Shown here piece by piece: positions 15,051 through 48,975 of a DNA stretch of 64,000 nucleotides. The notes under the pieces were generated by a model. The model was not told the DNA's origin. It made no database searches and saw nothing but the letters and a program-made list of their open reading frames with translations. Numbering within the stretch: the first letter of the stretch is position 1; each line of letters opens with the position of its first letter. The position numbers and the translations under genes were made by a program. This DNA comes from Clostridiaceae bacterium (GTDB lineage: Bacteria; Bacillota; Clostridia; DSM-8532), in the NCBI GenBank assembly GCA_012521705.1, contig JAAYLX010000030.1, positions 1 to 64,000 on the forward strand, read 5' to 3'.

Positions 15051-16139
15051 TTATTTATCCTTAGTATTTTCCTCCCCGGAATTTTTATTCTCTTGAGAAG
15101 AATCAAATATTCTTGTTGGAATTACCGGCTTTTTCGCACTGTTTTCAGCTTTGTTACTGTCCGCAGGTTTTTTCCTGGCTTTCTTAATAAGCAGCACAAC
15201 AATGATAATTATTGCGCCGTAGAAAATGATGGCAATCCACGAACCGGCAAACCAAACTATAACGTTTTCAACTGTTCTGCGGAAATCCTTAATGGACCTG
15301 CTGAACGCTCCGGAGATTCTGTCTCCAAGGGTCCTGGCGACAGGATCACTTTCTGTTGCATCGTCAACTTCCTGTATATGTATATTGATTCGGCTGAAGG
15401 CCAATAATCTGTCGTAATTTCTCAGGGTGTTTTCTATACTCTCAATTTCATATCTGACTTCTGAAATCCTTTTCTCCAAAGTAATTACGTCCTCCAGCTT
15501 TGTGGACTTTTCCATTAATTCCAGAAGGGTTTCTTCCTGAACTTTGAGTGTCCGTACCCTTGTTTCGTAATCAACATACTGGTCAGTAATATCGGTTCCC
15601 TTTGAGTTGGATTCAAGAACTGTCCCGATACTTCCCATATCCTGCATTACTGCTTCGAATCTATCGGCAGGCACCCTGATTGTATAGTAGGCATTGCGCA
15701 AAGCCCGGGAATTCTGGCTTCTCCCGCGGATTGTACGGGATTCTGCAAACCCTCCGAAATCTTCAATAAGCTGGTCCAATGCGGTTATTGCCTCATCAAA
15801 GTTTTTGGTTTCAAGGGACACGTCCCCCTCCATTATTATCTTTCTTTGTGCCATTAAATCTGTAGAAGTATTTGTTGCAGAGGTATATCCAGGCTTTGCT
15901 TCCCCGTCATATTCTGCCTGAGGTGCTACTGCAGGCGCAGCAGAATCCCTGGAAACCGATACCGAATAATTGGCGCCTCCGATTCCTACTTCATCGAAGT
16001 AAACATTTTCTTTGGGAGCTGAAGCCTGTGTAGCTTCATTTGCACTTTTACTTGCGCAGGAAGTCATTATAAGCGTAAGTACAAGCAAGGACGCAATAAG
16101 AATACTTTTTCTCTTTATAAAAATTTTTCCTTTCTTCAT
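15051..16139 (-). CDS. DUF4349 lipoprotein with C-terminal membrane anchor
   Basis: A 362-residue exported protein. A charged N-terminus and hydrophobic stretch end in the lipobox-like LIMTSCAS, so Cys near residue 29 should carry lipid. The central part (about 95-270) is a DUF4349 domain with MAQRKIIMEGDVSLE and a coiled-coil section. A membrane helix near 290-315 and a Lys-rich cytoplasmic tail follow. The family's function is unknown. The frame extends upstream to 16241, but the ATG at 16139 has a GAGGT nine bases upstream and begins the signal sequence. Confidence 0.75.
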   Translation of the reverse strand: MKKGKIFIKRKSILIASLLVLTLIMTSCASKSANEATQASAPKENVYFDEVGIGGANYSVSVSRDSAAPAVAPQAEYDGEAKPGYTSATNTSTDLMAQRKIIMEGDVSLETKNFDEAITALDQLIEDFGGFAESRTIRGRSQNSRALRNAYYTIRVPADRFEAVMQDMGSIGTVLESNSKGTDITDQYVDYETRVRTLKVQEETLLELMEKSTKLEDVITLEKRISEVRYEIESIENTLRNYDRLLAFSRINIHIQEVDDATESDPVARTLGDRISGAFSRSIKDFRRTVENVIVWFAGSWIAIIFYGAIIIIVVLLIKKARKKPADSNKAENSAKKPVIPTRIFDSSQENKNSGEENTKDK

Positions 16140-16305
16140 AGGGCATAACCTCACTTTCACTATATTTGACGTCCGGCAAGGAAAAAAGTTCAATTTTTTT
16201 AAGCATTTGTTGCAAACTGACCCCATATCATTAACGGGCATAATTCTGTTTAAATGGTCAAGTTACCCCTGCCTTATGAATAAACTTCTATAAAGAGGTG
16301 ATTGT

Positions 16306-17106
16306 ATGTCCCAGGACGATTTCCTTGCTGGAACCTATGTGTTTAATGACGAAGTAATGTATGAAGGAATTTTCTCAGAAAGTACAAATCCTGATGTGGA
16401 AACCTTAAAAATTCAGGATTGTTACCTATATAATGCCGACTATCAGAGCACGGAAAAAAACGATGCGTTTGAGATAGACCTTCGTTTTTCCATCGGCATA
16501 CTTTATGATTGCCGGAGAAAGTCATCCTGGTTAACTGAGACCGAATTTAAAGAGATCCCATGTGAAAAGAAACTTATTCTTAACAAAAAGAAATTATCAG
16601 AGCGAGTTTACGATAAGAATACCAAAAAGTATTTTGTTCACCATCTTAAAAATGTCCGGTTCAATACGCGGATTCTGGACGAAAATAAGGTAAAGCTTAC
16701 GGTTACGGCAACCATTGAAGGAATAATACTTACAAAATATCACCACAATTTCTGGATATGTGATGATTTTAATCCCAGGCCTCCCTCAAAGAGCGAAAAT
16801 CTTGACTGGAAACAGGTCCTTGAAAGCATAAATATCAGGGATACTGTATTAATGTTTGAAACTCTGCTGGCTCTTGTCAAAAGATTATGCTCCGAAAGGC
16901 AGGACTATACTTGCAAAAGGATGAGAAAAACCTCTCACAGCAATCAACCCGCAAAAGAACCGCCGAATTGCGAAACTTGTACAAATGCGACCAATTGCCC
17001 GAATCAAGAGAATACATGTGAGGAATTGTATAACATAATCAGAAAGCTTAACGATGAGCTCAAAGAAAAGGACTATATAATTGACGGCTTGTTAAAATGC
17101 CTTTAA
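16306..17106 (+). CDS. unknown Cys-rich protein at the edge of the spore-surface cluster
   Basis: A 266-residue protein with no signal peptide. The first 160 residues look beta-rich. The region near residues 223-240 holds four cysteines (CETC, then NCPN and TCEE), and the end (about 240-266) is a predicted coiled coil. I do not recognise the family. AAAGAGGTG lies six bases before the ATG. Placement next to coat-like genes and a beta-rich build suggest a structural spore protein, but that is an inference from neighbours only. Confidence 0.55.
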   Translation: MSQDDFLAGTYVFNDEVMYEGIFSESTNPDVETLKIQDCYLYNADYQSTEKNDAFEIDLRFSIGILYDCRRKSSWLTETEFKEIPCEKKLILNKKKLSERVYDKNTKKYFVHHLKNVRFNTRILDENKVKLTVTATIEGIILTKYHHNFWICDDFNPRPPSKSENLDWKQVLESINIRDTVLMFETLLALVKRLCSERQDYTCKRMRKTSHSNQPAKEPPNCETCTNATNCPNQENTCEELYNIIRKLNDELKEKDYIIDGLLKCL

Positions 17107-17203
17107 AAATCTCCTTCCCTTCAGCCTGTGATAAGATTTTTACCGGCAAAGAGAAGGAGTTCTGGGCGAAAACCATACTTTATTCATAATAAGCTCCCCC
17201 TGC

Positions 17204-17235
17204 GAAAAAATCCTTCGGTCGGAAGGATTTTCTCT
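17204..17235. terminator. bidirectional terminator between convergent genes
   Basis: A 10-bp stem (17207-17216 with 17222-17231, AAAATCCTTC and its complement) has a 5-base loop and lies between the convergent genes ending at 17106 and 17280. A run on one side and T run on the other allow use from both strands. Confidence 0.65.
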
Positions 17236-17279
17236 GCCCGCAGGATACAATAATAATATTTGAAATTCGGTACTTATCC

Positions 17280-18140
17280 TTAGCAGTCACAGCGATATTC
17301 ATCAACTTTACCCTGTACTACGACATCCTGATCGATTCCCAGCTTATCAATGATATCCTCGGTTACGGTCAGTTCGACTATAGTAGTCCAGACAGATGTC
17401 GTATCTGACGTTATAACCTGGAATGTATCCAGAATATCTGCATCATAGCGGAAACATTTCAGCAGTATGTAGGACTGAAGACTTGGATCATCAATATAGC
17501 AGTGCTTCAGTTTCGGTTTGAACTCCGAGAACGGAATTGCTACGGTATATTCAAAGCTTGTATAGTTGTTTACCCCCTGAGATACGATAATAAGTGACTC
17601 ATGTGGTGTCTTCCGGTTCTGGCGCTGAAGGACCGGTACGCCTGCCGCGTCAATCACTGTTGAATCCACAAATGCCTTGGTAATGGTCGGGTCGTATTGC
17701 AGCCTGTTGGAAAGATTCCTCGGTAAGGTTAATACATCGAAATTTCCATTTTCATATTCAACAAGAAGCACCAATTCATACCTGTGAGCTATCTTTGATT
17801 TGCTTCCGCACAGCAATGTATTTCTTGGATAATCCGGCTGGATAATCCTCTTGCAAATCTTTACACAAACAACGGGAGACCCTTGTACCGGTTGCGCATC
17901 GGGGGTACTGCCATCATTGATAATATAGATTCTGAATGTTCTCTTATTCCCGGTAGGCACTCCTGCTGTGTACTCCTCCTGCCACAGGGTGTCGGTGTCA
18001 GGCAGAACCTTCTTGCCCAAGACCTGCTTCGCGAATATGTCAATGTAGTGCAATTCGGGCTTAACGTCAGGCTTACCATCAGGTTTACCGTCAGGTTTGA
18101 ATTCGGGCTTAACGTCGGTCTTAATAGCTTCTTCTGACAT
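17280..18140 (-). CDS. spore-surface-type beta-rich protein, paralogue A
   Basis: A 286-residue protein whose first 30 residues are a Lys-Pro-Asp repeat (FKPDGKPDGKPDVKP). The rest is beta-rich, with conserved landmarks LLCGSKSKI near 110, LVEYENGNFDVLTLP near 127-141 and AIPFSEF near 205. It ends in a Cys pair (CDC). The central block aligns by eye with the protein at 19483-20151 (LCGNRIRI and LVQFADNSYDLITLP), so the two are paralogues. The IPFSEF block recalls SPOCS/DUF3794 proteins of the spore envelope, but that link is tentative. AGGAGT precedes the ATG by eight bases and a sporulation-type -10 element lies further up. Confidence 0.65.
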   Translation of the reverse strand: MSEEAIKTDVKPEFKPDGKPDGKPDVKPELHYIDIFAKQVLGKKVLPDTDTLWQEEYTAGVPTGNKRTFRIYIINDGSTPDAQPVQGSPVVCVKICKRIIQPDYPRNTLLCGSKSKIAHRYELVLLVEYENGNFDVLTLPRNLSNRLQYDPTITKAFVDSTVIDAAGVPVLQRQNRKTPHESLIIVSQGVNNYTSFEYTVAIPFSEFKPKLKHCYIDDPSLQSYILLKCFRYDADILDTFQVITSDTTSVWTTIVELTVTEDIIDKLGIDQDVVVQGKVDEYRCDC

Positions 18141-18176
18141 ACAAATAACTCCTTTTAGAATGATTACTTTCTGCTT

Positions 18177-18185
18177 TATATTATG
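18177..18185 (-). promoter_or_regulatory. candidate sigma-K-type -10 element
   Basis: Minus-strand CATAATATA fits the sigma-K -10 consensus CATAnnnTA, and the next bases AAG are shared with the element at 20187-20195. It lies 37 bases before the start codon at 18140. A clear AC at the -35 position is not seen. Confidence 0.4.
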
Positions 18186-18203
18186 TAATTGAGATTGTAA
18201 CTG

Positions 18204-18566
18204 CTACTTAAAAAATCTTGAGAATTTGCTGCCAAATGCATTTTTGTGAGGTATTTCCTTAAAAATTTCCGTATTGGATTGGATATTATCAAGAAGTTCC
18301 TTCATCAAAATTATTTCGTTCTGAAGCTGATCTATTTTATTAATAATTTCTGCATAGTTCTTCTCATATTCCCTGTTTTTTTCGGCAGGAACCTGAACCG
18401 GATTATTTATGGATTTTGAGCCCAAGCTTTGTACGCTTATTCCGACAGGGTCTTTATGTGGTTTCTCTGTAAACGAAATCGGGTTTTTTGTATATATTTC
18501 ATTTTCTTCTCTGAGCATCCTTTTCCAGCCCGAACTATAGGCTGATCTGTCAACGAATTCTTCCAT
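18204..18566 (-). CDS. small coiled-coil protein, unknown
   Basis: A 120-residue soluble protein. The N-terminal half is polar and Pro/Ser/Lys-rich, and the C-terminal half (about 66-105) is a predicted coiled coil with leucine and isoleucine heptads around KIDQLQNEIILMKELLDNIQ. It ends in a basic, Phe-rich tail. No family is recognised. The frame also has an ATG at 18584, but the ATG at 18566 has GGAAGGTG about seven bases upstream. It lies between the glycosyltransferase and paralogue A in a leftward series and has its own sporulation-type -10 motif, so a role in the same assembly is plausible. Confidence 0.5.
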   Translation of the reverse strand: MEEFVDRSAYSSGWKRMLREENEIYTKNPISFTEKPHKDPVGISVQSLGSKSINNPVQVPAEKNREYEKNYAEIINKIDQLQNEIILMKELLDNIQSNTEIFKEIPHKNAFGSKFSRFFK

Positions 18567-18597
18567 ATTGCTGTCACCTTCCATTTTGCATCTTTTA

Positions 18598-18606
18598 TAT
18601 TATATG
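18598..18606 (-). promoter_or_regulatory. candidate sigma-K-type -10 element
   Basis: Minus-strand CATATAATA matches CATAnnnTA and lies 32 bases upstream of the start codon at 18566. It is the second of several such elements in this cluster. Confidence 0.35.
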
Positions 18607-18649
18607 AGGAACTTCAGAAATATCTTCTGTTTCATCCCTCTTAAACACC

Positions 18650-19474
18650 TTAAGTCTGGGCATAGGCACACATTTTTTTAAATTCCTTGCATCCGGGCAA
18701 ATCCGAGTCCCTGTAGATATGATAAGCCGGATATGTGGTATCCACATAAAGCTCAAAACCGTTAACCGCCGCGCGGACACAAAAGTGGCGGTCCTCCCCG
18801 TTAAAGCTAAGATTGTATATGGGCGTAAAAGACACCTTGCTATGAAGTACTTTTTTGCTTAACAAAGTACAGCCGCCAAGTCCTCCCACTTTATATACTC
18901 CGGGTTTTCTCAGCATGTCGTAAAACTTTTGGGTCCTCTCCCTTATTTGTCCTGCATTAAATAATTCTTCACCTTTCATCTCATACTGGGTGTAATTGTC
19001 ATACAGCCAGACCTGGGGGCAAAGGGGTCCTGCATGGGACCATCTGGTCCAGTAAATTTCGGAAATAATATCCTTGTCCAGTTCAATTAAATGCTTCAGG
19101 GTATCGGGGTGGAGAAGCAAATCCGAATCCACAAAAAAGAGCCCGTCAAAATCCCTGTCCCTTGCATATTCAAGTATCCGGTTTCTCAGTTCCCCCACCC
19201 TGAAAGTGCTGATTCTGTTCCATTTGTGCCGGCTGTAAGGTTTATTGTCCTCTTTCATATACTCAGGAGCCAATAGGCTTCCTGCTTTCAGCACAGTGCC
19301 TTTAAGAGCCCTGGCTATATTCTGCAAAACCAAAGATGAGTCAAGCGATATATTATCATCAATGAACAAAAAACTAACCTGAATACCATGAGTCTTCAGG
19401 TTCAAAAGCGAAATACCATATTCACTTAGTATTTCAGGTTTCTGTCTGACAGGACTTGCTGCAAGAATCCGCAT
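18650..19474 (-). CDS. glycosyltransferase, GT-A type (GT2/Anp1-like)
   Basis: A 274-residue soluble protein with a GT-A fold signature: an N-terminal Rossmann-like strand MRILAASPVRQ, and FVDSDLLLHPDTL near residue 116, whose DSD is the DxD metal and nucleotide-sugar site. The middle of the protein (YWTRWSHAGPLCPQVW) and a late GEDRHFCVRA segment with an acidic pair fit processive or single-addition inverting enzymes. No membrane segment is present. It starts 9 bp after the paralogue at 19483, with its ribosome binding site inside that gene, so the two are coupled. The acceptor is presumably the neighbouring surface proteins or a spore polysaccharide; this is inferred. Confidence 0.75.
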   Translation of the reverse strand: MRILAASPVRQKPEILSEYGISLLNLKTHGIQVSFLFIDDNISLDSSLVLQNIARALKGTVLKAGSLLAPEYMKEDNKPYSRHKWNRISTFRVGELRNRILEYARDRDFDGLFFVDSDLLLHPDTLKHLIELDKDIISEIYWTRWSHAGPLCPQVWLYDNYTQYEMKGEELFNAGQIRERTQKFYDMLRKPGVYKVGGLGGCTLLSKKVLHSKVSFTPIYNLSFNGEDRHFCVRAAVNGFELYVDTTYPAYHIYRDSDLPGCKEFKKMCAYAQT

Positions 19475-19482
19475 GACCTATG

Positions 19483-20151
19483 CTACTCCAATTCTCCCAA
19501 TACGGTAAGTTCATCTTCAACCACTACCTGAACTATAAGATCGAAGAATATTGCTAAATCCACTGTTGTTGCCGGAACCGGCGGCGAGCTTGTTCCACAG
19601 AAGCATACGGCTCCAATATCCGCGTTCCAGGTCATATTTCTCAACCTTGTAACAACCGTAAACAGTGTGTCGGCAGGTACAACCCCTGTGAAATCGTCAA
19701 CAGGAATTGTAATTGTGTAAACAAATACATTGCCCACTATCTGCATGGTTTGCAATATGCTTCGAGAAATTTGCTTTTCGGTGAGATCATATAATGTGGT
19801 CACTTTTACCCCAATGTCATCGGGAAGAGTAATCAGGTCATAAGAGTTATCAGCAAACTGGACCAGGAGAAATACTTTGAAAGGTACAGTTATTCTGATC
19901 CTGTTGCCGCACAGACAGGTCCATGTCGGTTTTCCGACGAATTTTACCTTGACGTCCTGGATGCATTCCACCGGGAATTCATTGAATGGTCCTGCATTGT
20001 TTATGAAAAGAGTTACCGGCTCTTTTGTCTGAAGCCTCTGACCGGTCACGGGATCCCTCTTCTCCTGGAAAAATATCTGAACATCCTTTTCTTCAAACCT
20101 GGCTTTGGTTTTCTTAATGATAAGATTGACAGGTTTATAGTCCTTATGCAT
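19483..20151 (-). CDS. spore-surface-type beta-rich protein, paralogue B
   Basis: A 222-residue beta-rich protein with a central CLCGNRIRITVPFKVFLL segment followed by LITLPDD, homologous by inspection to paralogue A at 17280-18140. It lacks the Lys-Pro-Asp repeat and ends in an acidic strand. A GTG at 20157 could serve as start, but AAGGGGAG is nine bases before the ATG at 20151 and only three before the GTG, so I use the ATG. It is co-transcribed with the following glycosyltransferase. Cysteines in CLC and CFC motifs could cross-link coat layers. No function is established. Confidence 0.65.
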   Translation of the reverse strand: MHKDYKPVNLIIKKTKARFEEKDVQIFFQEKRDPVTGQRLQTKEPVTLFINNAGPFNEFPVECIQDVKVKFVGKPTWTCLCGNRIRITVPFKVFLLVQFADNSYDLITLPDDIGVKVTTLYDLTEKQISRSILQTMQIVGNVFVYTITIPVDDFTGVVPADTLFTVVTRLRNMTWNADIGAVCFCGTSSPPVPATTVDLAIFFDLIVQVVVEDELTVLGELE

Positions 20152-20186
20152 TGACACAAACTCCCCTTATTGCTGTTTTGATACTT

Positions 20187-20195
20187 TATATTATG
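20187..20195 (-). promoter_or_regulatory. candidate sigma-K-type -10 element
   Basis: Minus-strand CATAATATA followed by AAG is identical over 12 bases to the element before paralogue A and lies 36 bases before the start codon at 20151. Spacing to the start is the same in both cases. Confidence 0.45.
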
Positions 20196-20315
20196 CATGG
20201 CATGTGATTGTTGCTATTGCGTCAGAAGGAAAGTTACGGGTCCTTAATCAAAATCTGTTCATTTATGAAAAGACTTCGTGTTATTGATTAAATTCTTCTC
20301 AAACCCGCTTATTCT

Positions 20316-20371
20316 GAATATTTCCGTGAAAGTATTATCATTCACTGGCTAAGGCTTATCCACATATAATC
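20316..20371 (+). promoter_or_regulatory. candidate sporulation promoters of the cgeB-type operon
   Basis: Two overlapping candidates are visible. A sigma-E-like pair has GAATATT at 20316-20322 and CATTCACT at 20339-20346, 16 bp apart. A sigma-K-like pair has AC at 20344-20345 and CATATAATC at 20363-20371, 17 bp apart. The start codon is at 20398. Neither is proven; both match consensus except for one or two bases. Confidence 0.4.
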
Positions 20372-20397
20372 TAGTAAACATAATAAGGAGGACGAAA

Positions 20398-21342
20398 ATG
20401 AAAATTCTTTTTACCAATCCCTCACCATTGATCAAATATGGCATGCAGAAGGGCTTTGAAAAACACGGCTGGGAGACCGACAGACTTGAAGTCCCCCAGC
20501 AGAGTGTGGACGGCCTTATTAAAAAGATCGAGGAATTCAAGCCCGACTATTTATTCACAGAGGGCGGAGTTGATACAAAGAAGTTTATTTTTCCCGTGCT
20601 GGAAAGATATTCTGTCCCTCATATATATTGGGCTGTCGAGGACCCGGTCGCCCATGCAACCCTTGCTTTGCAATGGGCTACAAAATCGGTGCTCGTACTG
20701 ACCCCTGATATGGAAATGCTTGAAAGTTACAGACAGAACGGGCATAAGGCTCTTTGCATACCCTTTGCGGCAGACCCCGACTACTACTATAAATATCCTT
20801 ATGATGAACATTTCGCCTCCTTGGATGCGATCCATGTAGGGAACAATTACAATGTTTTCCCTGAACGCAGAAAAGCTTATAAATACATAATAAGTCCGTT
20901 TATTGACCACGGGAAAAAGATAGAGGTGTACGGATTTGACTGGGATCATCCCCGTCATGAGTTTAAGCTTGACCCTGCATATCATAAAGGTTATTTACCC
21001 CATGAAAAAAGTGTCATTGCTTATTCCAACGCAAAGATCACATTGGGGGTTCATTCCATTACAAATTCACGGACTATGCAGTCCATGCGGACTTTTGAAG
21101 TCCTTGGCTGCGGCGGATTCTTCCTCACGCAGCGCACTCGGGCTATTGAGTATATGTTCAAAAACCATGTCCACCTCGTATGGTCAGCAAGCTACGAGGA
21201 AACTGTCGACCTAATGAATTATTACCTTGAAAATGACTCGGCCAGGGAAAAGATTGCTTTGACCGGTCAGCAGTTTGTGTATCAGAACCACAGCTATGAG
21301 AGACGTGTTTCTGAAATAATAAATGCTTTAAAGGCGGGATGA
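20398..21342 (+). CDS. CgeB-family spore glycosyltransferase
   Basis: A 314-residue soluble glycosyltransferase of the CgeB group (DUF3880 plus Glyco_trans_1_2). The N-terminal half has the family segments YLFTEGG near 58 and IYWAVEDPVAH near 79. The C-terminal half has MRTFEVLGCGGFFLT near 228, the usual nucleotide-sugar end of the family, and a final YEETVDLMNYYL. B. subtilis CgeB acts in glycosylation of the outermost spore layer. AAGGAGG sits seven bases before the ATG. It overlaps the pyruvyl transferase by four bases (ATGA). Confidence 0.8.
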   Translation: MKILFTNPSPLIKYGMQKGFEKHGWETDRLEVPQQSVDGLIKKIEEFKPDYLFTEGGVDTKKFIFPVLERYSVPHIYWAVEDPVAHATLALQWATKSVLVLTPDMEMLESYRQNGHKALCIPFAADPDYYYKYPYDEHFASLDAIHVGNNYNVFPERRKAYKYIISPFIDHGKKIEVYGFDWDHPRHEFKLDPAYHKGYLPHEKSVIAYSNAKITLGVHSITNSRTMQSMRTFEVLGCGGFFLTQRTRAIEYMFKNHVHLVWSASYEETVDLMNYYLENDSAREKIALTGQQFVYQNHSYERRVSEIINALKAG

Positions 21343-22328
21343 ATTTGAAAATTGCGATTATCGGATATTACGGACATAACAACCTGGGCGATGAGCTTAA
21401 TCTGTTTGAAATGATGAAACTGATAAAGAAGCAGTATCCTCTTGCGGACATTACCGTGTTCAGCGGAGGACTTGGTTGTCTGTATTATGATGTAGACTAT
21501 AACATCGTACTGGCAGACAGGATGACATTGTCCGAATACAGGAATACTTTAAATACATTTGATATTGTAATTATAGGGGGCGGAGGCCTTGTCTTCCTGG
21601 GGGCAAATTACTTTGATTTTCTTCAGGAAGGATTAAAAGTCCCTTACATATTTAGCCGGGTGGGAATCGACAACCGCGTTGTTTCCCCGCAGGTAACGGC
21701 ACAACTTAAAGAGATCCTCAGCAGGGCCTATGATGTTACAGTACGGACAAGTTACGACAGGGAACTTGCCGTAAAATATCTTGGAATTGACTGCGGTGTA
21801 GTTCCGGAAGCCATATGGAACTATGAGGCCGAAAAATTCCCGCTACCCTTTGCCGGCAAAAAGATTCTTGCCAGCATAAATGCTTATGGTGCAAAATTTG
21901 CACCTCAGATTAAAGCTGCCCTTTCAGAAATAAAAGTTACCCATACCGATTTTACTTTATCAATGCAGGATACTTCCAGGGACTTTTATTTCAATATCCT
22001 GAGTACTCCGGATAAAAGAGTTATATTGCCTGAATCGGTAAGTCTCCATAAAAAGGCTTCATTCCTGGCCTCCATGGACCTTGTTATAACGAGCAGGCTC
22101 CATGCAGGGTTAATAGCCTTGAGTCATGGGATACCTGCCATTATGTTAAAGAGTACTCCCAAGGTTAAATTCCTGCTTGAAGAAATAAAGCTTCCCGAAT
22201 TGTTCGTCGGAGGAGAAATAACTTCATCTTTGATTGAAAACACTCTCAGAACCAATTATAAACCTCGCCTGACAGAAATAGCACAACGAATGAAAGAACT
22301 GTCTCAAGCTCCTGTAATCCCGTTATAG
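21339..22328 (+). CDS. polysaccharide pyruvyl transferase family protein (CsaB-like)
   Basis: A 329-residue protein starting KIAIIGYYGHNNLGDELNL, the nucleotide-binding start of the polysaccharide pyruvyl transferase family. It includes IIGGGGLVF near 77 and the C-terminal SRLHAGLIALSHGIPAI segment of the GT-B-like fold. Family members add ketal-linked pyruvate to cell-wall or exopolysaccharide sugars; CsaB pyruvylation anchors S-layer proteins. Its start overlaps the CgeB stop, so the two enzymes are made together. The acceptor glycan is unknown. Confidence 0.82.
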   Translation: MNLKIAIIGYYGHNNLGDELNLFEMMKLIKKQYPLADITVFSGGLGCLYYDVDYNIVLADRMTLSEYRNTLNTFDIVIIGGGGLVFLGANYFDFLQEGLKVPYIFSRVGIDNRVVSPQVTAQLKEILSRAYDVTVRTSYDRELAVKYLGIDCGVVPEAIWNYEAEKFPLPFAGKKILASINAYGAKFAPQIKAALSEIKVTHTDFTLSMQDTSRDFYFNILSTPDKRVILPESVSLHKKASFLASMDLVITSRLHAGLIALSHGIPAIMLKSTPKVKFLLEEIKLPELFVGGEITSSLIENTLRTNYKPRLTEIAQRMKELSQAPVIPL

Positions 22329-22341
22329 AAAGGAGAGCGTT

Positions 22342-23547
22342 ATGAGTAATGAATATAGGGACATCATGCCATTGTTTTCCGGGAAAAAAATCATGGCTTC
22401 AGATATTGATATAAAAAATCCTGTTATAAAAACCCAGCACCCCGTGGTGGTAATATACCCTCCCACCATTGACTGGAACTATATGAAGCAGCGCCCTCAG
22501 CAGATTATGGAGCAATTCTCGCTGAACAGGTTTGATGTGTTTTACTGCAACAAAACCCAGTCAAAAACGCAACTATATACTAATATCAATCCCAATCTGA
22601 GAATTGTGCATAATAATACTACATTTATAAGTGACATTGTGCCACAGCTAAAAAAGCAAGGAAAAAAAATAATACTTTGGGTTTCCTGGTCCAAACTCCA
22701 TTCTTTTTTGGACCATTACAGCCCTGATTTTATCATATATGACTATCTGGACGATTTTGCAGCATGGGAACCATACCTTGATCCCATGGTAAATAAAGCT
22801 GATGTAGTAATTACAACATCAAAAATCTTAAATGACAGGATGAAACGGGATTATCCGCAGAAGCCAAACTTCATGGTACCCAACGGCTGTAATCTGTCCC
22901 ATTTTGTCCCTGACAAAAATAGTCCGAAGCCTGTAGAATTTTTAGATCACAATGGGCCTGTCATTACCTATTCAGGCGCATGGGCAAACTGGATAAATGC
23001 CGGCCTGATTGAAAAAATTGCCCTTACTTACAAGGACGCATTGGTGGCAATTATAGGAACCTTGTTCGGAGTGTCAGTCCCAAAGCAGATTCCAAATATC
23101 AAATATTTGGGATTAAAGCAGTATGACCAGCTCCCTCCGTATTTGCAGCACAGCACGGTTTGCATTATACCATTTTTGATTAATCCAATAACCGTTGCCA
23201 CCAATCCTATAAAAATGTATGAATACCTGGCCTCCGGAACTCCCGTGGTATCATCCGACATCCCTGAAGCACGGGGCGTTCCCGGAGTTTACATTGGCAA
23301 GAATGATAAAGATTTTGTGGATAAAATCGGGATGATATTAAGAAAAGAGCATGATTTTAACTACGATGAAGTATACTCCTGGCTAAAAACCCATACCTGG
23401 GAAAGAAGGTTTGAGAAGATACATAGTATTATTAATGAGTTTATGGATATTCCCAATCTGAAAGCTGTAAATGAAGCTGAAAACGTAAATAAAAATGAGA
23501 ATGACAATGATAATAAAGATAAGGAAAAAACAGATGACAAACTTTAG
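22342..23547 (+). CDS. glycosyltransferase, GT-B fold (GT4-like)
   Basis: A 401-residue protein with a two-domain GT-B plan. Its N-terminal domain has VVIYPPTIDWNYMKQRPQQI near 31, typical of GTs found beside teichuronic or exopolysaccharide genes. The linker has NGCNLSHF near 183, and the C-terminal domain has KMYEYLASGTPVVSSDIPE near 292, which includes the nucleotide-sugar Glu. The last 25 residues are a low-complexity Asn/Lys/Asp/Glu tail. GAAAGGAG precedes the ATG. It follows the pyruvyl transferase by 13 bp. Confidence 0.82.
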   Translation: MSNEYRDIMPLFSGKKIMASDIDIKNPVIKTQHPVVVIYPPTIDWNYMKQRPQQIMEQFSLNRFDVFYCNKTQSKTQLYTNINPNLRIVHNNTTFISDIVPQLKKQGKKIILWVSWSKLHSFLDHYSPDFIIYDYLDDFAAWEPYLDPMVNKADVVITTSKILNDRMKRDYPQKPNFMVPNGCNLSHFVPDKNSPKPVEFLDHNGPVITYSGAWANWINAGLIEKIALTYKDALVAIIGTLFGVSVPKQIPNIKYLGLKQYDQLPPYLQHSTVCIIPFLINPITVATNPIKMYEYLASGTPVVSSDIPEARGVPGVYIGKNDKDFVDKIGMILRKEHDFNYDEVYSWLKTHTWERRFEKIHSIINEFMDIPNLKAVNEAENVNKNENDNDNKDKEKTDDKL

Positions 23548-23650
23548 GTATATTCTCTATAAACGCAAAAAATATAAGCACTTAAGAAAAATCAAAGTGA
23601 AAAGTAACAGCAAAACTGAAACAAAAACAGTATTGGCACAGCAAAAATAA
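23534..23650 (+). CDS. possible 38-residue basic peptide
   Basis: A short frame starts inside the last codons of the glycosyltransferase (ATG at 23534) and ends with TAA at 23648. Its start MTNFRYILYKRKKYKHLRKI is very basic, and the rest is polar. AAGGA lies eight bases upstream of the ATG, inside the Asn/Lys tail of the upstream gene. The terminator hairpin begins at its stop codon, so it would be the last gene of the operon. Small size makes a chance frame possible. Confidence 0.35.
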   Translation: MTNFRYILYKRKKYKHLRKIKVKSNSKTETKTVLAQQK

Positions 23651-23683
23651 AAGCCCTGAAAGTCTGTACTTTCAGGGCTTTTT
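23649..23683 (+). terminator. intrinsic terminator of the cgeB-type operon
   Basis: A perfect 14-bp stem (23649-23662 with 23669-23682, core AGCCCTGAAAG) has a 6-base loop and five Ts. It abuts the CCA end of the oppositely oriented tRNA-Arg gene. Confidence 0.85.
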
Positions 23684-23759
23684 GGCGCGCCCAGCAGAGC
23701 TCGAATCCACAACCTTCTGGTCCGTAGCCAGACGCTCTATCCAGTTGAGCTATGGGCGC
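23683..23759 (-). tRNA. tRNA-Arg (anticodon ACG)
   Basis: The minus strand folds as a complete cloverleaf: acceptor GCGCCCA with TGGGCGC, D-arm GCTC/GAGC, anticodon stem TCTGG/CCAGA with loop CTACGGA, and T-loop TTCGAGC. The anticodon ACG reads CGN arginine codons after A34-to-I editing. The 3' CCA is encoded. Confidence 0.95.
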
Positions 23760-23868
23760 ATATTTGCACCTCGCTGAGATGCATTAATTATATTAATATA
23801 AATCAAAACAAAAATCAACACCTATTTGTTTGAATATTAATCCAGTAAAGGATTACACTTCCCGATAC

Positions 23869-24810
23869 TCAGAACATATCCTTCTTGTTGAGGAAAAACG
23901 CAACAATCAGGGAAAGTACAATTGAGCCGGCAAATATATACAGCCACATAAACGGATTATGCTGCAGGGGAAGCGGAACATTCTGCCCGAAAAAGCTGTA
24001 TACCATATTGGGAATGGCCAAAACTATAGTCATGGCTGCAAGGAATTTCATCACTACATTCTGGTTATTGGATATGATAGAGGCAAAGGCGTCCATCATT
24101 CCGCTTAGAATTGTGCTGTATATGTTTGCCATCTCAATGGCCTGCTTGTTCTCAATAATCGTATCTTCAAGAAGATCATGGTCTTCTTCGTACAGCTTAA
24201 TTACTCTTCCTGTCAACAGTCTTTCAAGCACGGTCTCGTTTGATTTCAGTGATGTAGTGAAATAAACAAGGCTTTTGCTAAGCTCCATCAGCTTATAGAG
24301 TTCCTTGTTACGCATTGACTTATGAAGGGTTTTCTCCAAATACTCGGTTTTCTTGTCAATATGCCTCAGGTACTTTAAGAAGTCTTCTGCTATGTTGTAA
24401 AGAATCTGCAGGATAAAACGGGTCTTCTTATAGGTATAAAAGTTTCTTATCTGCCCGTTTCTGAATCTTTCAAGCACAGAGGTCTGCTTGCTGCTGATGG
24501 TGATGATAAAATCATCCCTGACCTGCATAATTCCCATTGGAACAGTTTCATACTTGATGGAATTATCCTCTTCGTAGACATAGGGTATATCAACAATAAT
24601 AAGCGTCTGATCTTCGTCTATGTCTACACGCGGTTTTTCCTCGCTGTCCAATGGATCCCTCAGCATATTCTGCTCTACGTTTAGGTGCTTAATAACAGCC
24701 TCAAGCTCCTCTTCGGTGGGGTTTGTAAGGTTTACCCAGCACCCTCTTTCAATGGCCTCAATACAAATTAGTTCGTTTCCCGGTTCTACTGTTTTGAAAA
24801 TTTCTATCAA
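23869..24810 (-). CDS. corA: CorA-family divalent cation (Mg2+) channel, GQN variant
   Basis: A 313-residue protein with a large cytoplasmic domain and two C-terminal membrane helices (about 252-274 and 286-306). After the first helix the usual YGMN signature reads FGQN (Gly at about 275), so the motif Met is replaced by Gln. The rest is typical: a long helical stalk with KSNETVLERL and the end FFLNKKDMF. Translation most likely starts at a TTG at 24810, which has GGAAGGTGA five bases upstream; a GTG at 24819 has no proper spacing. An M-box riboswitch precedes it, which supports Mg2+ as the substrate. Confidence 0.85.
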   Translation of the reverse strand: MIEIFKTVEPGNELICIEAIERGCWVNLTNPTEEELEAVIKHLNVEQNMLRDPLDSEEKPRVDIDEDQTLIIVDIPYVYEEDNSIKYETVPMGIMQVRDDFIITISSKQTSVLERFRNGQIRNFYTYKKTRFILQILYNIAEDFLKYLRHIDKKTEYLEKTLHKSMRNKELYKLMELSKSLVYFTTSLKSNETVLERLLTGRVIKLYEEDHDLLEDTIIENKQAIEMANIYSTILSGMMDAFASIISNNQNVVMKFLAAMTIVLAIPNMVYSFFGQNVPLPLQHNPFMWLYIFAGSIVLSLIVAFFLNKKDMF

Positions 24811-24891
24811 CGGGATCACCTTCCTTCTATAAAATCACCTCACAAAGAATTATGTCCCCAAATACACGGGTGACATATACTACAAACACAA

Positions 24892-47896: not shown

Positions 47897-48490
47897 TTAT
47901 TTTTTCATCTTGCCATAAGAGAACCTCTTTTTGTCACTCAGGTAGTCCTGTACATAGCGAAGCGCTTCACCAAAGCGCTGGAAGTGAACGATTTCCCTTT
48001 CCCTTAAAAATCTCAGAGGCTGTATAACATCCGGGTCATCTGCCAAGTTAAGGAGATATTCGTATGTAGATCTGGCTTTTTGTTCGGCTGCCAAATTTTC
48101 ATAAAGGTCAGTCCTCGGGTCTCCTTTTGACTGGAAGTATTTCGCTGAAAAAGGAGTGCCGGCAGCCTGAACCGGATATGTGCCTTTGCCGTGGTCGACA
48201 TAATATGGCTCATATCCGCTTCCTTTAATGTCTTCAATGCTTGCATTCTTTGTAAGCTGTGCGACCATTGATTGTATCATTTCGAAATGAGCAAGTTCCT
48301 CTGTGCCTATATCATTCAAGGTAGCTTTAGCCATAGGAGTAACCATTGATGGACGCTGGCTCAGATATCTCAGTGATGCAGCCAATTCTCCGTCAGGACC
48401 GCCAAATTGTGTGATAATAAGTCTTGCCATTCTTGGATCCGGTCTTTTAATTTTTACCGGGAACTGCAATTTTTTATCATAAATCCACAT
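47897..48490 (-). CDS. cotJC: spore coat protein CotJC (manganese-catalase-like)
   Basis: A 197-residue protein of the Mn-catalase family, starting MWIYDKKLQFPVKI. It has the helical-bundle metal residues: Glu in GPDGELAASLRYL near 33, EELAHFEM near 66-73, then EQKARSTYEYLL and REREIVHFQRF in the second half. In B. subtilis the CotJ proteins join the inner coat under mother-cell control. The frame opens further upstream, but AAGGTGA eight bases before the ATG at 48490 decides the start. Catalase activity is possible but not shown. Confidence 0.92.
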   Translation of the reverse strand: MWIYDKKLQFPVKIKRPDPRMARLIITQFGGPDGELAASLRYLSQRPSMVTPMAKATLNDIGTEELAHFEMIQSMVAQLTKNASIEDIKGSGYEPYYVDHGKGTYPVQAAGTPFSAKYFQSKGDPRTDLYENLAAEQKARSTYEYLLNLADDPDVIQPLRFLREREIVHFQRFGEALRYVQDYLSDKKRFSYGKMKK

Positions 48491-48764
48491 TACACTCATC
48501 ACCTTCCAAATCAAAGTTAAACTTGTACTGCCACGGCCACGGGTTTTCAATCCATCTCCATGGAGAATCACTGATATTCTGAGGAGTCAGCATTCCATAT
48601 GTGCGTTCATATTCTTCTCTTAATTCTTTTGCCCGTTTAACGACATTATTGTATTTTTGTATGGCGTCTCTGTCGGTGGGATGGGTATTCAGATAAAGCT
48701 GAAGATCGAGTGCATAAAAATCAAGAACTGAAATTATTTTCAATAATTCGTCTCTATTCATCAT
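48477..48764 (-). CDS. cotJB: spore coat protein CotJB
   Basis: A 95-residue small acidic coat protein with MNRDELLKIISVLDFYALDLQLYLN at the front (split by family as NRDELL and DFYALDLQLYLN) and a Trp-rich end SPWRWIENPWPWQY typical of CotJB. Two adjacent ATGs (48764 and 48761) follow a GAGG nine to twelve bases upstream. It overlaps cotJA in front and cotJC behind. Confidence 0.9.
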   Translation of the reverse strand: MMNRDELLKIISVLDFYALDLQLYLNTHPTDRDAIQKYNNVVKRAKELREEYERTYGMLTPQNISDSPWRWIENPWPWQYKFNFDLEGDECNVDL

Positions 48765-48975
48765 CGCAATCATCCTCTCTGCCTTTTCTCTCCCACCCGT
48801 AGACATCGTACAGTTCAGGGAAAATGGTTCCTTTTCTGAAGCCGTCCAACGGCCGGAAAGTATTACACAGCTTCTGGAAAGGGACATATGCATGGGCCAA
48901 CTGTACATTGTGTAATGACTGTTCCTGAGGTATGCAGGTCGCTAATGGTTTTGCTACTGTCATATCTTCATTCAT
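48754..48975 (-). CDS. cotJA: spore coat protein CotJA
   Basis: A 73-residue coat-associated protein with LAHAYVPFQKLCNTFRPLDG in the middle and FPELYDVY near the end, both typical of CotJA. GGGGAGA precedes the ATG. It is first in cotJABC, which is assembled as one complex in the coat. Confidence 0.9.
   Translation of the reverse strand: MNEDMTVAKPLATCIPQEQSLHNVQLAHAYVPFQKLCNTFRPLDGFRKGTIFPELYDVYGWERKGREDDCDDE

Follow-up and report, generated by a model that had tools for sequence, protein, structure and literature searches.

We analysed a stretch of 64,000 nucleotides (the window) from a Clostridiaceae bacterium (assembly GCA_012521705.1, contig JAAYLX010000030.1, positions 1 to 64,000) and describe a group of eight genes at 16306-23547, a candidate locus for the assembly and glycosylation of the spore surface. 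The genes encode two paralogous structural proteins, here named ParA and ParB, a coiled-coil protein, a glycosyltransferase with a DxD motif, a CgeB-like glycosyltransferase, a polysaccharide pyruvyl transferase, a GT4 glycosyltransferase and a protein that joins a beta domain to a coiled coil (Table 1). These reading frames and families (PF13524, PF04230, the GT4 and GT-A-like enzymes, the paralogues, the coiled-coil protein and a further Cys-containing protein) are those listed in an initial annotation of the window. The two divergent arms that it described are also recovered, with cgeB, the pyruvyl transferase gene and the GT4 gene on one and parA, the GT-A-like gene, the coiled-coil gene and parB on the other; the gene at 16306 belongs to neither arm and is a unit of its own, convergent with parB. 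The locus is flanked by a DUF4349 gene on one side and a tRNA-Arg/CorA pair on the other, and a small basic reading frame after the GT4 gene (about 23534-23650) has no counterpart in the relatives.

Table 1. Features of the locus and of its right border, in window coordinates
Feature	Position	Strand	Basis or remark
266-aa protein, N-terminal beta domain and C-terminal helical/coiled-coil tail, ParB partner	16306..17106	+	no Pfam match
ParB, 286-aa beta-rich structural protein	17280..18140	-	no Pfam/NCBIfam/PDB match
-10-like element CATAATATA 5' of parB	18177..18185	-	kept across orthologues
126-aa coiled-coil protein	18204..18584	-	orthologues stand 5' of parB
Candidate sigma-E-type promoter ATA-N14-CATATAAT 5' of the coiled-coil gene	18599..18623	-	orthologue conservation
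GT-A-like glycosyltransferase, DSD and GEDRHFC motifs	18650..19474	-	weak Anp1 match
ParA, 224-aa ParB paralogue	19483..20157	-	24% identity to ParB
-10-like element CATAATATA 5' of parA	20187..20195	-	orthologue conservation
Candidate sigma-K-type element AC-N17-CATATAAT 5' of the glycan operon	20344..20370	+	orthologue conservation
CgeB-like glycosyltransferase	20398..21342	+	PF13524
Polysaccharide pyruvyl transferase, CsaB-like, under the CsaB equivalog cut-off	21339..22328	+	PF04230
GT4 glycosyltransferase, TuaH-like	22342..23547	+	PF13692
tRNA-Arg(ACG), right border of the locus	23683..23759	-	

The ParA/ParB/ParC family and its genomic linkage

We find that ParA and ParB are 24% identical (E 4e-9), and a third paralogue, ParC, lies elsewhere in the same genome (L031:9565-10446; G, L and C codes are our own handles). 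Members of the family contain 4-12 Cys, those of ParB standing at 92, 96, 111, 214 and 229 and in a C-terminal CDC, and orthologues of ParB are 66-85% identical within the genus and 42-43% identical in a second genus. Pfam, NCBIfam and PDB searches returned nothing informative for ParA and ParB, in which no DUF11 or endospore-appendage Pfam domain was matched, and a PDB sequence search with a ParA/B/C profile gave no match. Structure models of ParB and of the 16306 protein were weak, with a mean pLDDT of 56-57 from shallow alignments, and Foldseek with the predicted models found nothing significant. By these searches, ParA, ParB and ParC appear to form a previously undescribed, orphan structural family with beta-rich, Cys-containing members.

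The 16306 protein and the coiled-coil protein likewise gave nothing informative in Pfam and NCBIfam. Orthologues of the former adjoin ParB in eight relatives (G012, G007, G001 on contig C50, G004, G005, G009, G030 and G024), and a low-confidence model predicts six strands in its N-terminal domain. The initial annotation had called this protein Cys-rich, a character that is not conserved, since the tail accounts for 11 Cys in the window protein and 2-8 in the relatives. A conserved GAATAAAC block is observed 15-35 bases 5' of the start codon of the gene and its orthologues; to our knowledge, it fits no known sporulation sigma consensus. Comparisons including hhalign rejected homology between the 16306 protein and ParA/B, as well as the presence of SPOCS domains (SipL, PF12673) in ParA/B/C or in 16306 (hhalign probability about 1% or less). 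As a separate observation, a protein of about 230-250 aa that has a single SPOCS domain (PF12673) and a long Asp/Lys-rich tail, distinct from SipL, recurs across the genus (L096 / L133:2738-3472; L083, L085, L088).

Upon examining the surroundings of parC, we observe a second candidate spore-surface locus (L031:9565-13492, contig C54), where two genes for GT2-TPR glycosyltransferases and a collagen-repeat gene are oriented divergently to parC. The C-terminal domain of the collagen-repeat protein matches TIGR03721 (exosporium glycoprotein BclB-related) with an E-value of 2.4e-50. TIGR03721 was detected in 4 of the 61 genomes searched (G000, G004, G005, G007), in all of which a gene of this type adjoins parC, and G007 has its BclB/ParC locus joined to the window-type locus in one contiguous cluster (L036). 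Furthermore, in a genome of a different family (G050), cotJB-cotJC has a distant homologue as its immediate neighbour, together with a coiled-coil protein (L047); the counterparts of this pair in the window (47897-48908) are homologous to CotJB and to CotJC, a member of the manganese catalase family. Through its ParC-BclB and cotJB-cotJC neighbours, the family is linked to known exosporium and coat genes. Additional BclB-type collagen genes of the same genome and of G007 lie away from the ParA/B/C genes (L129:2974-3873, L131:1859-2608, L130), and an upstream GGACAA or GACAA is common to L131, L129 and the ParC-linked bclB genes.

We find the locus again, with its gene order kept, in at least seven relatives within the genus. 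ParA and the pyruvyl transferase share an identical distribution, 8 of the 14 genus genomes (G000, G001, G002, G004, G005, G007, G011, G012), which should not be counted as eight independent events because the genomes are related. As in the window, parA and cgeB form an uninterrupted divergent pair in G001, G002, G007 and G011; in G004 and G012 the pair runs to the contig end. A smaller core of the 16306-like gene, the coiled-coil gene and parB, with the enzymes not nearby, occurs in G009 and in the second genus (G024, G030). Searching the class for the paralogues and their neighbours, as the initial annotation had proposed, we detected the family by profile in 11 of 292 genomes, belonging to three genera, and it is therefore narrow and lineage-specific. 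A contig scan for the locus gave one match, on the same contig as relative G007. The DUF4349 and CorA genes are adjacent in G003 and G013, both of which are without the locus (window counterpart 15051-24819; L118, L119), and are similarly close in G002, where the locus lies on another contig, while in G007 the locus occupies a different place than in the window. No integrase or transposase was seen among the neighbours. Among relatives, the locus thus looks like a module subject to gain, loss or relocation.

Upstream elements and glycan enzymes

Published work gives mACm-N16-CATAN3TA as the sigma-K consensus (PMC5749712); the -10 of sigma-E and sigma-K is the same in C. difficile, where they have ATA and AC respectively at -35 (PMC3789822). 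Sigma-K is encoded by the genome studied here, scoring above the curated cut-off. The motif CATAATATAAAG, a 12-mer noted earlier before both paralogues, is exact at both sites (20195-20184 and 18185-18174, minus strand), although not at the 36-37 bases initially given: the start codon of ParB follows after 33 bases, and that of ParA after 26 if GTG is taken as the start or 32 if ATG is. In the whole 2.25 Mb genome, CATAATATAAAG is found only three times, close to the two copies of a reversed control pattern; two of the three copies precede parA and parB and the third is inside a reading frame.

The sigma-K-type elements proposed in the initial annotation are not enriched in the window (CATANNNTA, 41 found vs 39 expected), where no perfect mACm-N16-CATANNNTA is present either, so the case for promoters rests on the orthologues. 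All 5 relatives whose upstream DNA is intact have a perfect mACm-N16-CATANNNTA before parA. For parB, CATAATATA/CATAGTATA is kept in 8 of the 10 upstream regions tested, and the -35 place reads GC in the window and AC in G004 and G009. A relaxed sigma-K type, AC-N16/17-CATANNNT, precedes parC (5/5), cgeB (5/5) and bclB (3/3), the form in all five cgeB orthologues being AC-N17-CATATA(A/T)T. The parA-cgeB intergenic region has diverged except for a few blocks, and the invariant block GGCTTATCCACATATA is the cgeB -10 region. Additionally, 8 of 9 orthologues of the coiled-coil gene are preceded by a sigma-E-type ATA-N13/16-CATATAAT. As background, either pattern occurs in the upstream 100 bases of 0 of 80 other genes (103 kb of the same genome). 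Putative mother-cell (sigma-E/sigma-K) promoters are consequently recognisable across the orthologues, the window copies of parA and parB being imperfect.

Among the enzymes, the CgeB-like protein is assigned by family membership (PF13524, E 8.5e-26, 91 bits against a cut-off of 25), and its orthologues in six relatives are 74-85% identical. The pyruvyl transferase matches PF04230 (E 1.7e-20) and scores 81 bits against TIGR03609, the CsaB equivalog, whose cut-off is 213, whereas a GT4-CsaB fusion elsewhere in the genome (L109:1294-3522, 743 aa) reaches 271 bits. The fusion is probably the true pyruvyl transferase of the secondary cell-wall polymer (SCWP), and the window enzyme, given these scores, is not CsaB. 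Its residues R136, R253, H255 and K275 are conserved in alignment with the CsaB of the same genome and, judging from the RLH-N19-K spacing and motif, would correspond to R148, R306, H308 and K328 of Paenibacillus alvei CsaB (PMC10435577); the enzyme thus combines the PF04230 match with the Arg, His and Lys of phosphoenolpyruvate binding. The GT4 protein matches PF13692 (E 2.4e-9) and gives 64.6 bits with NF047676, under the cut-off. The GT-A-like protein has weak Anp1 similarity, and its D116-S117-D118 and G226-E227-D228 (in the GEDRHFC motif) are invariant in eight orthologues. PDB sequence searches with the CgeB-like, pyruvyl transferase and GT4 proteins gave no match.

A putative glycosylated outer spore layer and its alternatives

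Judged from sequence evidence, the locus would build and glycosylate an exosporium- or crust-like outer layer of the spore, made in the mother cell, a reading to which we assign a probability of about 0.68. The assignment to the mother cell and the spore surface, already made in the initial annotation, is well supported by BclB next to ParC, the cotJB-cotJC linkage, the conserved promoters, sigma-K, and SpoIVA, which every carrier at least 90% complete possesses. After engulfment, sigma-E would switch on the coiled-coil protein, followed under sigma-K by the Cys-containing ParA and ParB (and ParC elsewhere) together with the glycan enzymes. ParA/B/C may then self-assemble on the spore surface along with the BclB-type collagen-like protein, and the GT-A-like, CgeB-like and GT4 enzymes, with the GT2-TPR enzymes of the ParC locus, could build a glycan on the surface proteins, which the pyruvyl transferase would cap with acidic pyruvate ketals from phosphoenolpyruvate. 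The most specific form of this proposal, a pyruvylated spore-surface glycan carried by undescribed, self-assembling ParA/B/C with sigma-K timing, in a module variably present among close relatives, is tentative and falls somewhat short of even odds. The initial annotation is in this sense partly supported, a pyruvylated glycan on the paralogues being a further conjecture.

Several observations weigh against the spore-layer reading. In the window copies of parA and parB, the -10 is kept but the -35 place does not read AC, and the 64 kb contain 18 matches to the relaxed sigma-K pattern, most of them within genes; for these reasons it is conservation, and not the window sequence, that carries the promoter argument. 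Among control sporulation genes of the same genome, spoIVA has no motif upstream and sigK only a -10, and a second BclB gene, also taken as a promoter control, was uninformative. The paralogues have no structural relative, and their models are weak. Of 48 good genomes, 44 have SpoIVA, with or without the locus. The initial annotation held that many carriers among non-spore-formers would contradict it; the genomes searched showed no such pattern, a weak test because SpoIVA is near universal in the sample.

The acceptor of the glycan may be a different one. A BclB-type collagen-like protein would be as good an acceptor as the paralogues, and the glycan could lie mainly on it, with ParA/B/C as unglycosylated basal-layer or anchor proteins. 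The parC and GT2-TPR genes adjoin bclB, SgtA glycosylates C. difficile BclA3 (PMC7157674), and Cys-rich proteins are paired with BclA/BclB in the C. sporogenes exosporium (PMC4942563); G001, G002 and G011, however, have ParA and the pyruvyl transferase without a TIGR03721 protein, and we regard this arrangement as rather unlikely. That the paralogues form appendages (ribbons or pili) and not a continuous layer is suggested by C. taeniosporum, whose appendages consist of two paralogues of about 29 kDa and a collagen-like glycoprotein under sigma-K promoters (PMC5749712), but the missing DUF11 and endospore-appendage matches make it improbable.

Two further explanations dispense with the spore. 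The similarity of the enzyme to PF04230/CsaB and the many SLH proteins of the genome would suit a vegetative pyruvylated SCWP that anchors SLH proteins, with the paralogues as vegetative envelope proteins. We consider this very improbable: the separate fusion passes the CsaB cut-off that the window enzyme misses, and SLH proteins do not follow the enzyme, their domains being present in each of the eight genomes tested, four of which (G003, G006, G008, G013) have no window-type pyruvyl transferase, so that SLH anchoring is seemingly independent of it. Such a polymer also leaves the sigma-K/E promoters and the BclB linkage unexplained. Least probable of all is a mobile surface island, unrelated to sporulation and inserted beside the tRNA-Arg gene; the sites where CorA and DUF4349 are direct neighbours and the displaced loci of G007 and G002 speak for mobility, while the lack of integrases or transposases nearby, the conserved sporulation-type promoters and the exosporium genes as neighbours speak against such an island.

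Comparison with known systems

Adhesion, hydrophilicity and resistance of spores are determined by the outer layers, whose proteins are for the most part known only from Bacillus and a few Clostridium species. In clostridia that are uncultured and represented by metagenome-assembled genomes, a spore-surface function of the locus would add a family of proteins linked to the exosporium, and it would offer a testable case of pyruvate ketals on the spore surface. No description of a pyruvylated spore glycan, or of acidic pyruvate capping of spore sugars, was found in the literature searched, which is weak evidence of absence as it was mostly without subscription journals; a review of pyruvate substitutions never mentions spores (PMC6801904).

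By the tests applied (no DUF11, SPOCS, Pfam or PDB match), ParA/B/C appear to match none of the C. taeniosporum, C. sporogenes and B. subtilis systems. The C. taeniosporum appendage locus (P29a, P29b, GP85, CL2; PMC5749712) resembles the present one in its structural paralogues, collagen-like glycoprotein and sigma-K consensus promoters, but four of its nine proteins have DUF11 domains and, as described, it includes no glycosyltransferase or pyruvyl transferase gene. The C. sporogenes exosporium (CsxA, CsxB, CsxC, BclA, BclB; PMC4942563) likewise combines Cys-containing structural proteins with collagen-like BclA/BclB bearing a BclB-type C-terminal domain, whereas CsxA, with 25 Cys in 299 residues, is by its description far richer in Cys than ParA/B/C (4-12). 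The B. subtilis crust genes (cgeAB-cgeCDE, spsA-L, yfnHGFED, ytdA-ytcABC; PMC7439481, PMC10502511) share CgeB-type and GT-A-type glycosyltransferases, there serving the outer spore surface, and differ in operon content, in lacking the ParA/B/C family and in listing no pyruvyl transferase among the crust glycosyltransferases. CsaB of pyruvylated SCWPs (PMC10435577) shares the PF04230 family and the phosphoenolpyruvate-binding residues with the window enzyme, which stands under the CsaB cut-off in a genome with a true CsaB elsewhere. In C. difficile BclA3/SgtA (PMC7157674) and B. anthracis BclB, a collagen-like exosporium glycoprotein is likewise served by a dedicated glycosyltransferase; the glycosyltransferases here are others, and a seemingly orphan structural family is added. 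Spore-surface glycoprotein loci are already known as a kind, and what would be new here is the presence of this family in one of them.

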